From NCBI GenBank assembly GCA_029948255.1, contig JALIZF010001843.1:620001-684000 (forward strand): a DNA stretch of 64,000 bases, read 5' to 3'. Positions within the stretch are counted from its first letter, which is position 1. Each line of letters starts with the position of its first letter. Below, in pieces: positions 4,001 to 16,000 of this stretch. The notes under the pieces were generated by a model. That model was not told where the DNA came from, searched no databases, and saw nothing but the letters and a program-made list of their open reading frames with translations. This DNA comes from Telmatactis stephensoni. Taxonomy: Eukaryota > Cnidaria > Anthozoa > Actiniaria > Isophelliidae. A program made the translations under genes and the position numbers.

Positions 4001-7000
4001 GAAATTCCCAGTCTGCACACAGAGGTAGTTTGTTAGTCTGTTCCAGTATAGGTCTACTTGGATCCAGCTTTTTGAAATAGTCAGGCATAGGGGGTAGAGT
4101 AAGTATGTAGAATCCTCCATAAAGTTTCTTTCGTCGATATAACACAGCTATTACGACCAATAATAGTAGTATGACAAAGCCAGAAACGACAGCGATGATG
4201 ATCACAGCCTCCGTTGAGATTGTTCCAGGGCGTCTTAACTTTAGCTTGTTTATAATGGGTTGAGCTAAATGAGAGTAAAAATTACAATTGTGTTATGGTG
4301 CTATCGAAAACTCTGTCACTTTAGAGGCTTTATACGATCACGGGACAGCAGCCATGTCGAATGTGTTAGCGGCACTCTTTTATATCCATCAAAACGACTT
4401 TAAGGGATCAAGAAGACCTGAAGGTTTTGGTTGGGTATGAGGGCTAGGTATGACCCTGATTCTAATCCTAACCATAAGGCCCGGTTCACACGACGACATG
4501 AGGATAAGCGTTTTCTTACCGGTTCACACACGCAACATAACGTCATAAGCATAAGCCCGCATAAGGAAATGGAAAAGTTTTGTTTCTTATGCTTATGCTT
4601 ATGGCTGTGCTTATGTCGTCGTGTGAACCGGGCTTAATCCTAGGGTCTTTTTGGACCTTTAAGGTCTTTTCGATGGATGAGAAAGAGTGCTAATCTGTTG
4701 AATGGGAGAACCAAAGAAAAACTTTTTTCCCCGGAGAACTGGGATTCTTAAGAACGAAACTTGATTAACAGTACCCACCTATCAAAATATCTTCCTTATT
4801 TTTTCCTAATTCATTCTTCGCCTCACATCGATAGCTTGTAAAATCCTTTTTCCTCAATTCTGGTATAACCAAGATCTTGTGTTCCTTAGACCACTTGGAC
4901 ACGTTACCGAAAGGGACGAACAGTCCGTCATTTCTTTCCCTTAGCCATCGGACATAAGGTTTTGGGTTTCCTTTGGCAAAGCACTTGACCAAGACCCGAT
5001 CTCCAATTTGCCAGTGTAATTCATTGCGTTCGAGGGTGATTTTTGGAGGTGCTACGAAAGAAAGAAAGCTAAAGTTTATCGGCTTCACGAAGGCTAAGCA
5101 AGTTAAACCGTAGACTTCGTCTCCCCCATCCTCCTCCCCCCCCCCCCCCCCCCCCACTAAAGTTAAAGAACCCACACCACTATTTGGGGAGAGTGGGCCA
5201 TAAAGCTGGCGAGGTGTGTGGTCTAGCCTATAATACCAGAGGGCTAAATGTAATTTTTCGAGTTTGTTCATACCGCTGTAAAATTAGACAACAGACGCAT
5301 TGGCGCAGGGTTAGCCTCGAGTCAAGGTAAATTATTCAAAAATACCAGCGAGAAAAGCAAAATAATTTGACTAAGAACAATACAAAAATCGATTTTAATC
5401 CCATGGGTCTTTCTTGAAAAGGAGGCTAACCCTGCATAAATGCGCCTTTTGTTAAATAGCTCAGCGGACTTTAGCAACTGGAAACTGCACTATTGGCTAT
5501 CAGAGGTGCTGTGGTGTCCCTGCCCTCGCCCTCGTAGGGAAGGAAAATCAATTAACTTAAACCTAAGGCTATCTGATCAGTTCCCGGAGTTTCTCTCGTT
5601 ATATAAAAATGGGCAGCAGGAATATCATATCATTCTCAGTTCTTCTATTTGAGTCTCCATCGCAAAGGAAACCATCAAGAAGACACATTACGCAGAATGA
5701 TTTTTCGAGAACAATAAAACCAATATACCTAAGACTTCTAAGTAGGCTGTTTCGTCTTTTTTGCCAGCTCTGTTCACGGCTGAACATGTGTAAAATCCGC
5801 TGTTTTCCTGCCGAGCACCACAAATAACAAGTGTGTACGTATGGGGATTCCCTGCACCAGGGAACTTTGTATCCAGATGGTAGTAAGCATTGTGCTTCCT
5901 GAAGTCACATTCACTGGTTGATTGCAAGTCAGATCGCACTTCTAACAGTGTTCCATTCTTGTACCACGTAATGGTGGGGACAGGATGACCTCTGACCGTA
6001 CAGTTCAAAGTCACAGTGTTTGTGGCGTTGACGCGTTGACCTTCAAACTCTACGGATGGAGAGGCAACAGCTGTAAAGGAAGAAACATGTTATTACAAAT
6101 AAGATAAAAAGAAATCGTAGTGTAAATTTAATAATAATAATAATAATAATATTTATTCAGGAAAGCTCACGTCACATTACGTGGTTTTCAGTGAGGTCCT
6201 GCAGAGTACATAAATTTAAATTAAAGAAGAAGAAAAAAATTACAAGAAATCACAAAAACATAAAGTTACAAATATGAAATTAATGAAAGAATATGATGAA
6301 AAGAATATGCAAGTTTCTGAGTTAATTTTCTTAGGTCTATGAATCAGTGAAGCAATACTTTTTTAGCTTTTGCTTTGAAGCCTTGCAAGTTTTTTACATC
6401 TCTTAGGTTAATAAATTTAAATTAAATTTAATAATACGTCGTTGATGCAACGCACAGTGATCGTGTCAGTGTCGTCGTATATAAAAACATTCGAAATTCC
6501 TGCCATAACTGTGCAGTGACCATGTCGTTTTCCCAGCCATATGAATCTGTTCTGTAGTGCTAATTGCGATGACATCACAAAAATGAATGTTTCCGTTCAT
6601 CGATGTTTGCTTCTCAATTCTGATAGAACATCATAAAAGAATATTACATACAAAATGTCATGGAAATTTGTTAAGTACTGGCCAAGATATGGACAGTTGA
6701 ATATATAATTTCTCCTAATATATAAATATAAATATATAATTTCTCCTAATATATAAATATAAATATATAATTTTTCCTTGATAATACAAACGTCTGTGAA
6801 TTTGACTTGTATCACCACAGTAATATCTGGTTTTGTATCTTTCATGTACCTAACACACTCAGTTGGACCTCATCAGCACTTGGTGTTCCATTCTTATTTA
6901 ACGGTGCCATACATCTATAAGTTCCTGAATCATTAACTTGAGCATTGAAGATCTCCAGATAAGTGGTGTTCTGTGAGGGGCTTATTTTCTCAGTAATACG

Positions 7001-13000: not shown

Positions 13001-16000
13001 GCTTTTTCTGGTAATCCTTGGCTTAACATTGGAAAAGATTGACAAAACGAAATGTCAATCAGTAAACTGACAATTTTACCTTGTAATACAACCAGTATTC
13101 CCATATCCAGTGAAATAGTTTGACCATAAATAGACGTGGCTTGACACACGTACTTTCTTCCATCTTGAAGGTTGATATTCTTAATATCATAGCGACTTCC
13201 CTTCTTAGTGATCTTCGTTCCATCGGGCACAACATTTACACGACTTCCGTCGATTTCTTCTTTCCAAAGGGAAACGGTTGCATTGGGGTCGTTAGTTTCA
13301 CAGTTTATGTCAACAGATGATCCCACATCACCAACAAAAAATGGCGAGGAGTTTTTGGCGAGGAATTTGAACTCTGGAAGAAAACGCGGAAGTTGAAGTA
13401 ATGAGAAGTGGTTAGAAAGAAAGGAAACAATAGATGCATATTTGAGGGGAAACATAGCGGAACTTTGTGAAATATCGCTACAGATCAATTATGCGAGGGT
13501 TTAGAATAACTGATAGATAGTGATCGGGAAAACGACCAAAGGGAAAACGGCTTTACGTCCGGCGAGATACGATAGTAGGGATCTCAAGAAGAACGAGCTC
13601 ACAATGGCGAAATTCTACAGTGATGAGTAAACTTAAAGGGCATAGAACAGCCAGTATTGTTCAGCTGTAACGCAGAATAAAAGGGCAGGGCAACACGTGT
13701 TCGACAAACTATTAAACTCGTGAACAACTGCAAAAAATCGAGATACTTTTTAGCCACAATTCTACGGGACTAATTTCTTTTCGAAACCTCCTTTTTGAAA
13801 AGTTCCTATTACGCAAATTTTAATTTTTTTAAATTAATCAATTCTTATTAGATAACCCAGTTAAAATAATTTCCTATTTTCTAACTTTACGAATCCATAT
13901 TTTTCAAGATATTAAAGTTTCAAATCTCAAAATGCAAATAAATGACCTCAAATAAGACATTTGCACTCAGTAACTTTATGTAGTATTTGCAACAAGTGCT
14001 CTTCGATTCGACCGGATAACCCAAATTTTCGCTAAACTGCAGATCTTATCTCCGTACAGGGACAGATCCACGGGGCTTCCTTGGGTGCTCGGGGACCCCC
14101 CCCCCCCCCCCCCCCCCTCCTTTCTCATCCTAAAAATAAAACATTTTTACGTCGAGAAAGAAAAATATCAAGAACAAGATACTGTGAAGTGAACCCCCTC
14201 AGTCCGCCGCTGCAGTATGGAAATGATCGAAAAATGGAAAAACTCCAGTATTTTGGATTGAGTCGTTTTTGTATAATAAATGTTGCCTACTTTGACGTCA
14301 TCAAATTAGCATTAGAACATTTTAAACATTTATAACTCAGAAATACAAAGTCCGCAGGCTGTAAAATAAAACTGTGTTAGTTATCACTTAAAGAATAAGT
14401 GATTGGTAACAAAATTATGTTCATAAGAGCTTTAAGCGCTTGAAATGTTTGGGTCGATAGATATTTATCCAATAACGAAATGCAAGAGTTTCCCGGAAAG
14501 CACTTGTTTGAAAAACTAGCAAACTTTATGATGATCCATAAATAATTTGAAAACGCATTTTTGCTATACGATAAGACCTATCCTTTTCTTTTGTCTAAAG
14601 TGCAAAACCCAAGCAAAAAAGATCATTTTCACTTTCATGCGGATGAGCGTAGACGTGACTTGGTACAAACCTTGAACGACTAATTTAGCATCTTCAGGCC
14701 AGAATCCGATGAAACTGGGATTATTGCCTTGAAACCGAAACGATACTTCAGTTCTGCACTCGTACGTTCCACTCTCTTTTACGTCTAAGTTAGCAATCGT
14801 CAACGTGTTTGTGTTTGTACTGCCATTTCTTGAAGTGCTTTGCCATTGGGCTGGCAGTGGCTTCATGTCTTTAAACCACATAACTGTCCTGACGAACGGT
14901 GAAATGACCTGGCAATGAAATGTAGCTGAGCCTTTCTCCGGTGCACTGACAGCTTTAGAAGAGACGTTAATTGTTGGGACACCTGTTGAGACATAGTTAG
15001 TATGGTCTGTTAGCATGGTGTATATATTACCTTTTAATAATTGTCTAAGTTCTTTGGGTTTTGCCACTAGAGAGTATGACAACATGGCAGAGTCAGCAGT
15101 GCCTTGCTTCTCTGCGCAACTTGTCGTTTGTGATGAGATTTATAAAATGTATACGCATTTGCTGAATGGATGCTGTATATCAGAGGACAAAGAAAGAAAG
15201 AGAAAGAGAAAGAAAGAAAGAGAAGGAAAAGAAAAGAAAACGCGCATGCGCTTTAGATTGCGTCTACATATGATAATCTCTCCGAAGCTTCAGGGTACTT
15301 GCAAGGTTCCGAGTTCTTGCACTTCCTCACTTTTACTTACAATTTCATAAACTTCTACTTACCTTTTGTATATGTATAGACGGTCAAGGATTGCCCTAAC
15401 CTCAAGAATTTTTTATGTCCATTCTTTTTCCAAGACTGACACTGATATTGCCCTTTTTCGTTCTTCTTTATTTTATATAAAGTAAACTTTTGTCCAACTT
15501 GAGTTAGTTTAACTCCATCAACTGTTAAACGCTTGGAACCTCGATAGAGGTTGACCAATGCAGATGAATTGGAGAGTCGACAGTCGAAGTCAACTGCACT
15601 GCCTTGTTGAATATAAAAGCTCCTGAGGCTTCCTTTTCCTAGCCAATTCGATGAGGCTGAGAAAAAAGGGAGAGATGATAAATTATTTTTGCTAAGATAA
15701 GCCACTTTTGGCTGCTGCTGTAACGACGCGACGACGATGATGATGACGATGATGATGACGATGATGATGATGATGATGATGACGCGGGGAATCTTTTCTG
15801 AGGCAACTTTTTTGATGATATTCCCCGGCATGAGCCTCTATTGCAAACTACCGTCCAGTATGAATATGGACTATTTGTAAAACTTCTTGATTTTTGCTAG
15901 ATTGTTTGTATTTTATGTTTGATAGTTCTCTTTCCACTTGTCTAGATCTGCATATCGCATCTAGGCTATAGCACGCTCTCTGTAAGTGTTAAGATCATAT

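Follow-up and report, generated by a model that had tools for sequence, protein, structure and literature searches.

The question raised by this locus is whether a receptor tyrosine kinase of a sea anemone carries a module of the chitin-binding CBM14 family among its extracellular immunoglobulin (Ig) domains, and what such a module might contact. The locus lies in a 64,000-nucleotide stretch of Telmatactis stephensoni DNA, here called the window, which corresponds to C105:620001-684000 in an assembly of 483.5 Mb and 1782 contigs. On the DNA, a stack of Ig exons, one CBM14 exon, a hydrophobic span and a kinase of the fibroblast growth factor receptor (FGFR) type follow each other in one order, one phase and on one strand, and a tandem neighbour is arranged alike. 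Judged by these exons, the gene probably encodes a real domain-shuffled receptor, in which CBM14 would be a module for contact with matrix or ligand and is not a proven chitin sensor. The strongest new evidence for the receptor design is the neighbour, a diverged paralogue on the same contig.

The gene is located on the minus strand and comprises 22 predicted exons, the first being signal-peptide-like (17925-17997) and the last (502-1020) containing the stop. Apart from this leader, there are eleven Ig exons, a single CBM14 exon, a transmembrane exon, and eight exons for kinase and tail. Exon edges were placed by hand; membrane span and signal peptide were assessed by eye. GT and AG were found at 21 of 21 introns, and the 18 exons left when Ig6 to Ig9 are omitted join into a single open frame of 1382 residues. 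The leader exon is an addition to the list of the first-pass annotation, which had proposed a receptor kinase with eleven Ig exons and a 225-bp CBM14 exon. In the order of transcription, the features are:

17925..17997, minus strand: exon 1, signal-peptide-like, ending in phase 1 (hydrophobic run judged by eye)
15363..15656, minus strand: Ig1 exon (A type), phase 1-1 (I-set 22.4 bits, cut-off 23.7)
14671..14982, minus strand: Ig2 exon, phase 1-1 (Ig_3 45.4 bits, cut-off 30)
13080..13373, minus strand: Ig3 exon (A type), phase 1-1 (Ig_3 25.4 bits, under the cut-off of 30)
12508..12819, minus strand: Ig4 exon, phase 1-1 (Ig_3 42.4 bits)
11594..11686, minus strand: extra 31 codons of the longer CBM14 exon of the first-pass annotation, same frame (acceptor score 6.0; no match in the paralogue)
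11462..11593, minus strand: CBM14 exon in its preferred form, 132 bp, phase 1-1, four-cysteine core ECPKPNG...VKKC (CBM_14 32.9 bits)
10760..11047, minus strand: Ig5 exon (A type), phase 1-1 (match to the Ig exon that follows CBM14 in the paralogue, tblastn 2.4e-10, z 19.5)
9816..10138, minus strand: Ig6 exon, frame broken, 323 bp
8682..9012, minus strand: Ig7 exon, frame broken, 331 bp
7777..8107, minus strand: Ig8 exon, frame broken, 331 bp (second part z 13.5 and 16.7 to two paralogue Ig exons)
6850..7156, minus strand: Ig9 exon, frame broken, 307 bp (second part 18.9 bits with an Ig hidden Markov model (HMM) built from the window gene)
5729..6070, minus strand: Ig10 exon, phase 1-1 (I-set 61.2 bits; z 24.6 with paralogue exon b12)
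4779..5051, minus strand: Ig11 exon, phase 1-1 (Ig_3 50.5 bits; z 14.3 with paralogue exon b13)
3980..4264, minus strand: transmembrane and juxtamembrane exon (42% identical in the paralogue)
502..3525, minus strand: kinase and tail, first four exons 3340-3525, 3032-3139, 2651-2850 and 2183-2305
502..3525, minus strand: kinase and tail, last four exons 1685-1755, 1469-1606, 1175-1280 and 502-1020

Nine Ig exons were scanned with Pfam, leaving aside Ig8 and Ig9 and taking Ig6 and Ig7 as single-frame pieces. Six of the nine (Ig2, 4, 6, 7, 10, and 11) passed the curated Ig cut-off; Ig1, Ig3, and Ig5 scored below it, with best expectation values (E) of 2e-5 to 2e-4. Ig1 resembles both Ig3 (z 16.9) and Ig5 (z 18.1). 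Ig2 and Ig4 were considered as a second repeat type and dropped, as they reached a z of 6.3 only and Ig2 is nearer to Ig5 and Ig10. Two introns-borne repeats were seen in the gene, namely a short tandem array with a 31-bp unit (6700-6778) and a long poly-G run (around 14095-14120).

The paralogue was found by means of a query consisting of transmembrane and kinase parts, which pointed to exons at 589-592 kb; the second receptor gene lies in C105:588001-620000 on the same strand. It contains kinase exons, a transmembrane exon, a CBM14 exon, and Ig exons resembling Ig10, Ig11, Ig8, Ig5, and Ig1/Ig3. Eleven Ig exons were counted, including the incomplete b2; b1 ends before a GT. The start of its outermost identified exon is 15,048 bases away from the stop of the window gene, and no leader exon was found in C105:588001-620000. 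The kinase keeps the beta-3 lysine, HRDLAARN, and DFG. Its CBM14 exon (C105:602583-602729, 147 bp, phase 1-1) scores 29.1 bits with Pfam, and in both genes the CBM14 exon directly precedes a member of the mutually best Ig pair (Ig5/b5, z 19.5). The cysteine spacing, counted on the alignments, is 19/10/13 in both exons, and 17 of the 43 positions from first to last cysteine are shared. Their alignment score is 105, and none of 2000 shuffles exceeded 42 (z 20.7). When the window CBM14 was compared with its own genome, the best non-self match was C105:602593-602724 (E 2.8e-5), with one on contig C3 close behind (5.0e-5). In protein comparisons with the paralogue, the best value for open stretches of the two introns beside the exon was E 0.024. 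For the exon pair, the proportions of nonsynonymous (pN) and synonymous (pS) differences are 0.44 and 0.60, and the lowest pN among 500 codon shuffles was 0.57. The occurrence of a matching CBM14 exon in a diverged tandem paralogue indicates that the design is older than the window copy of the gene. The first-pass claim that this exon is part of a receptor kinase thus gains from a second gene with the same layout.

The exon itself is situated between Ig4 (12508-12819) and Ig5 (10760-11047), ahead of the kinase, as had been claimed. Both its forms are open, in phase 1-1, and reach 31-33 bits with PF01607 (CBM_14), the curated cut-off being 22.1 bits; for the long form 11462-11686 on the minus strand, the values are 31 bits and E 2.8e-7. 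Both candidate starts are in the same frame. On a weight matrix made from 29 other acceptors of the window gene and the paralogue, the acceptor at 11593 scores 8.5 and the one at 11686 scores 6.0. At the protein level, 11462-11593 matches the paralogue exon with E 5.4e-11 and 11594-11686 gives no match; moreover, the paralogue exon starts with a split codon and two codons ahead of the first cysteine, which is near the short form. On these comparisons, the exon probably starts at 11593 rather than at 11686, and 11594-11686 is perhaps an alternative acceptor region or intron. The 225-bp exon of the first-pass annotation, although open and in phase 1-1, is therefore likely too long.

The canonical CBM14 domain contains six cysteines forming three disulfides, and its second and sixth cysteines are disulfide partners. 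In both paralogues, the core has four cysteines, and precisely the second and the sixth are missing, such that neither domain shows the six-cysteine, three-disulfide pattern. A Foldseek search with a model of the domain (predicted local distance difference test, pLDDT, 60) gave the mite protein Der p 23 as top hit, with a probability of 0.99 and E 0.037. The first row and four others of the PDB matches are Bagel or cell-surface repeat proteins; with an aligned length of 22 or 23 residues, they are probably chance matches.

The complete tyrosine kinase reported on the same strand was confirmed: exons K1-K8 are open and score 299.6 bits with PF07714. VHRDLAARN, DFG, and the beta-3 lysine (VACK) are present. 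The best 60 of 2503 PDB matches are all FGFR1-3, with FGFR2 as the best one, and the identity to FGFR2 is 57% over the aligned kinase rows. In the tail, EEYLEL aligns with EEYLDL of FGFR2; we take its tyrosine to be in the context of the PLC-gamma site of FGFRs. The kinase is thus of the FGFR type. The ectodomain does not show the three Ig domains of an FGFR with FGF-binding D2-D3: the best PDB matches of Ig10-Ig11 are Robo, DSCAM, neurofascin, titin, and contactins, VEGFR2 ranks lower, and there was no FGFR in the best 60 of 247. For these reasons, we describe the protein as having a kinase of FGFR type and a rebuilt ectodomain, and do not classify it as an FGFR. Compared with FGFR1-4, kinase type and tail motif are alike, and, according to an excerpt of PMC2754479, the Ig domains of FGFRL1 are likewise coded by phase 1 exons; in contrast, FGFR1-4 possess three Ig domains, as opposed to eleven Ig exons plus CBM14 here. 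A further comparison is the Nematostella 'FGF receptor c', a cnidarian protein with an FGF-receptor label and a rebuilt ectodomain. Its row in PMC4877951 names PTKc, FN3, SEA, Ig_2, Pkinase_Tyr, and IGc2; it thus differs by SEA and FN3, and CBM_14 is not listed in that row. Accordingly, a rebuilt ectodomain on such a kinase is already listed for a cnidarian.

A kinase tree was computed from nine rows, in which A is the window gene and B the paralogue; a sequence from contig C678 was omitted for its likeness to one from C222. A, B, and the rows from contig C5 fall together with FGFR2 and separately from C222 and C54, at a support below the mark of the tool. No branch is starred, and A, B, C5a, FGFR2, and the group C5b-d arise from one open fork. 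B is the kinase row most similar to A (63%). As no branch is starred, a sister relation of A and B is not claimed from the tree.

How special is the combination within this genome? PF01607 has at least 78 matches at E 0.001, a count which is a lower bound because the search missed the paralogue exon. C105 is the only contig on which a CBM14 match and a kinase match lie less than 100 kb apart, considering the best 98 of 618 candidates. The canonical CBM14 proteins of the same genome share PF01607 with the window exon and, unlike it, have an extra cysteine between the first and the third. This cysteine occurs in 19 of 19 sequences from the 20 top-scoring loci, and in ten of the 19 it is followed by CDWP. 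Note that the pattern used for this sample required five cysteines, that one locus (L007) did not fit, and that several near-identical pairs are included. On contig C5, there is a cluster of FGFR-like genes, of which one (598001-615700) was scanned for CBM14 and three further copies were used for the kinase part only; none of the 12 best CBM14 HMM hits, with E up to 4.3, lies in the scanned gene. The module is consequently not general in this kinase group. Conversely, a CBM14 on C101 (L046, 708500-713500; match at about 711.2 kb) also lacks the second cysteine and has the spacing 19/10/13, although further cysteines surround its core, and the kinase matches listed include none on C101; hence this CBM14 form is not confined to receptors. 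By eye, other frames of the C101 gene have a PLAT and laminin-G-type look.

Two further candidates were rejected. Five CBM14 matches on C74, which are 10-30 kb apart, were examined as a possible array of paralogues, and no clear receptor exon was found in five 10-kb stretches; in one of them, frames resemble an amine oxidase by eye. On C479, a TSP1-like frame lies next to the CBM14, and 10 kb of sequence showed no clear match to a kinase; the stretch (L024, C479:132000-141999) looks by eye like a local repeat array of several near-identical CBM14 frames and a TSP1-type frame. Near-identical pairs of CBM14 loci were seen on separate contigs (for example C382/C1026 and C55/C1276), which would fit a partial assembly of both haplotypes. 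Dozens of matches to the catalytic-loop exons were seen in this genome, with about 45-60% identity and several per contig (C512, C682, C220, C437, C193, and others); they point to many tyrosine kinase genes, of which some may be haplotype copies.

A collection of genome contigs scanned with the CBM14 exon and viral contigs scanned with the last exon gave no match. We know of no described family in which receptor tyrosine kinases bear a carbohydrate-binding-type module like this one. A receptor consisting of Ig, CBM14, and tyrosine kinase does not appear in the titles and opening abstract lines among the papers listed, in a library that comprised few subscription papers and did not extend to GenBank predicted proteins. 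Both domain names occur in PMC4877951, in separate rows, and in PMC3900453.

Several observations weigh against a working receptor with this module. The pS of the CBM14 exon pair is near saturation, so that selection on the exon is indicated and not measured. At the DNA level, the exon cannot be separated from the introns, and neither gives a clear match to the paralogue, the lowest E values being 0.038 for the exon and 0.056 for the introns. Within the interval between Ig4 and Ig5, the splice sites of the exon are outscored by an AG (11343, 9.9) and a GT (12434, 11.2), and the CBM14 acceptor of the paralogue scores 0.6, which is below all 29 acceptors of the matrix; because of the values for 11343 and the paralogue, the matrix is a weak guide to the edge of this exon. 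The paralogue has oddities of its own: b8 is 328 bp long, b2 lacks its first half, b6 has a GC donor, and one kinase exon is split into two pieces. The fold match is weak, as 0 of 371 hits reach 0.001 and PH domains are among the others. Three queries (Ig4-CBM14-Ig5, the CBM14 exon, and Ig3-Ig4-CBM14-Ig5) found no relative in the protein collection, whose animal content is of uncertain size, such that this null result is no evidence of absence. Finally, the lengths of Ig6 to Ig9 are not multiples of three, and by eye the Ig reading shifts frame within each of them. A transcript with these four exons as assembled would stop within Ig6. Of the eleven phase 1-1 Ig exons in the first-pass annotation, the splice sites stand, and the reading frames of Ig6, Ig7, Ig8, and Ig9 do not.

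These breaks are compatible with real decay as well as with a local fault of the assembly. An assembly fault, under which the real gene has eleven good Ig domains, appears quite possible, though short of probable. The breaks are clustered in four neighbouring exons within 3.3 kb, 0 of the 18 remaining exons are broken, and GT and AG are present at Ig6 to Ig9. Clean frames of 762, 940, and 1495 codons elsewhere argue against a high general error rate, although these are the longest frames seen and thus a biased sample. On the other hand, there is no N in the window, and the paralogue likewise has an Ig exon of broken length.

A second alternative concerns the module rather than the gene: the CBM14 fold may serve the Ig stack merely as a structural element or as a site of protein binding, without binding any glycan. 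We lean against this idea and consider it a possibility to be kept in mind. It is in agreement with the four-cysteine form of the domain and with its nearest solved relatives. Der p 23 (PDB 4zce), a mite peritrophin-like protein, is a four-cysteine CBM14 as well; a passage of PMC12609036 describes a two-disulfide form, whose cysteine numbers give the spacing 19/10/13. It provides the best single stretch against the PDB (23.9 bits) and is the top fold hit; in contrast to the receptor, it is a small solved protein of 48-50 residues without Ig or kinase. EHEP of Aplysia (8in3, 8in6) has CBM14-type domains, matches with a whole-sequence E of 1.9e-9, and supplies fold hits 3 and 5; it differs in being secreted and tannin-binding and in having three such domains. 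Both proteins are reported as non-binders of chitin in an excerpt of PMC10619976 and in a title cited in PMC12609036. However, a mere spacer would not need to be retained in two diverged genes; this says nothing against protein binding.

It is doubtful that the window copy is decaying, in which case its product would be no more than a receptor with skipped exons or a truncated protein in soluble form, and the neighbour would be the working gene. The concentration of broken frames in four adjacent exons is in accordance with decay. Moreover, a DNA search for a second or allelic copy gave the locus itself and two intron stretches, among the best 40 of 1529 candidates. Yet kinase, transmembrane, and outer exons are open, the splice dinucleotides of Ig6 to Ig9 are present, the frame survives the omission of these four exons, and the neighbour has oddities too.

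According to the first-pass annotation, the receptor may sense chitin or another polysaccharide of matrix or microbes, which would suit innate immunity, symbiont recognition or skeletal matrix control. As a mechanism, CBM14 would bind a polymer such as chitin or a beta-glycan, the receptors would cluster, and the kinase would be switched on. We regard this as unlikely. It is favoured by the membership in the domain family, by W67 and Y48, which are retained in both paralogues, and by the chitin-binding CBM14 of human chitotriosidase, which is fold hit 9. In addition, according to an excerpt of PMC10216261, cnidarian tissues contain chitin and stony corals have genes for chitin synthase, which keeps a chitin ligand conceivable. 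Against it stand the four cysteines out of the canonical six and the reported failure of Der p 23 and EHEP to bind chitin, which leave chitin sensing unproven and the claim without support from our results; likewise, no result obtained here speaks in favour of a role in immunity, symbiont recognition or skeletal control. Since the critical binding residues are not conserved among chitin binders (PMC10619976), sequence cannot decide on chitin binding. Binding of chitin by this module is accordingly to be seen as possible and not to be assumed.

Skipping of the CBM14 exon, or its use in a different transcript, is very improbable: there are two candidate acceptors and higher-scoring AG and GT sites in the interval, but the exon is in phase 1-1 on both sides and recurs at the matching place in a diverged paralogue.

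Other frames of the window were assessed by eye. Two long frames of 496 and 1495 aa at 56898-63015 (plus strand) have the look of a BEL/Pao-type retroelement, with a gag-like part and a polyprotein of protease, reverse transcriptase, and integrase. A frame of 292 aa at 31008-31886 (minus strand) looks like a rhodopsin-type GPCR, and a frame at 41175-41525 (minus strand) contains HEMMHSIGFIHEQSRPDR, an astacin-like zinc-protease motif.

Returning to the domain-shuffled receptor, contact with a matrix or surface ligand seems to be the best general reading of the CBM14 module. The product would be a single-pass receptor acting as an ordinary receptor tyrosine kinase: a ligand or polymer would gather receptors, their kinases would phosphorylate one another, and the tail tyrosines would recruit partners. 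Here, we infer clustering by a multivalent polymer from the general working of such kinases. CBM14, which sits among the outer Ig domains, just ahead of the third of the three related Ig exons (Ig1, Ig3, Ig5), probably entered prior to the split of the two genes, as an exon of symmetrical phase (1-1). It would then have been retained as a contact module for the extracellular matrix or for a surface ligand, be it a glycan or a protein.

The bolder conclusion, to which we assign a low likelihood, is that of a small family of animal receptor tyrosine kinases reading polysaccharide directly, with CBM14 captured by exon shuffling in an FGFR-type receptor. If this were true, chitin, or some other glycan of matrix or microbes, would on contact trigger phosphotyrosine signalling. 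The pair also makes it testable whether an animal kinase can sense extracellular polysaccharide. If no glycan is bound, the receptor would still be a clear case of a CBM14-type domain reused within a receptor. The tandem pair, which keeps the module despite strong divergence, is a testable case of exon shuffling giving receptors new ligands.

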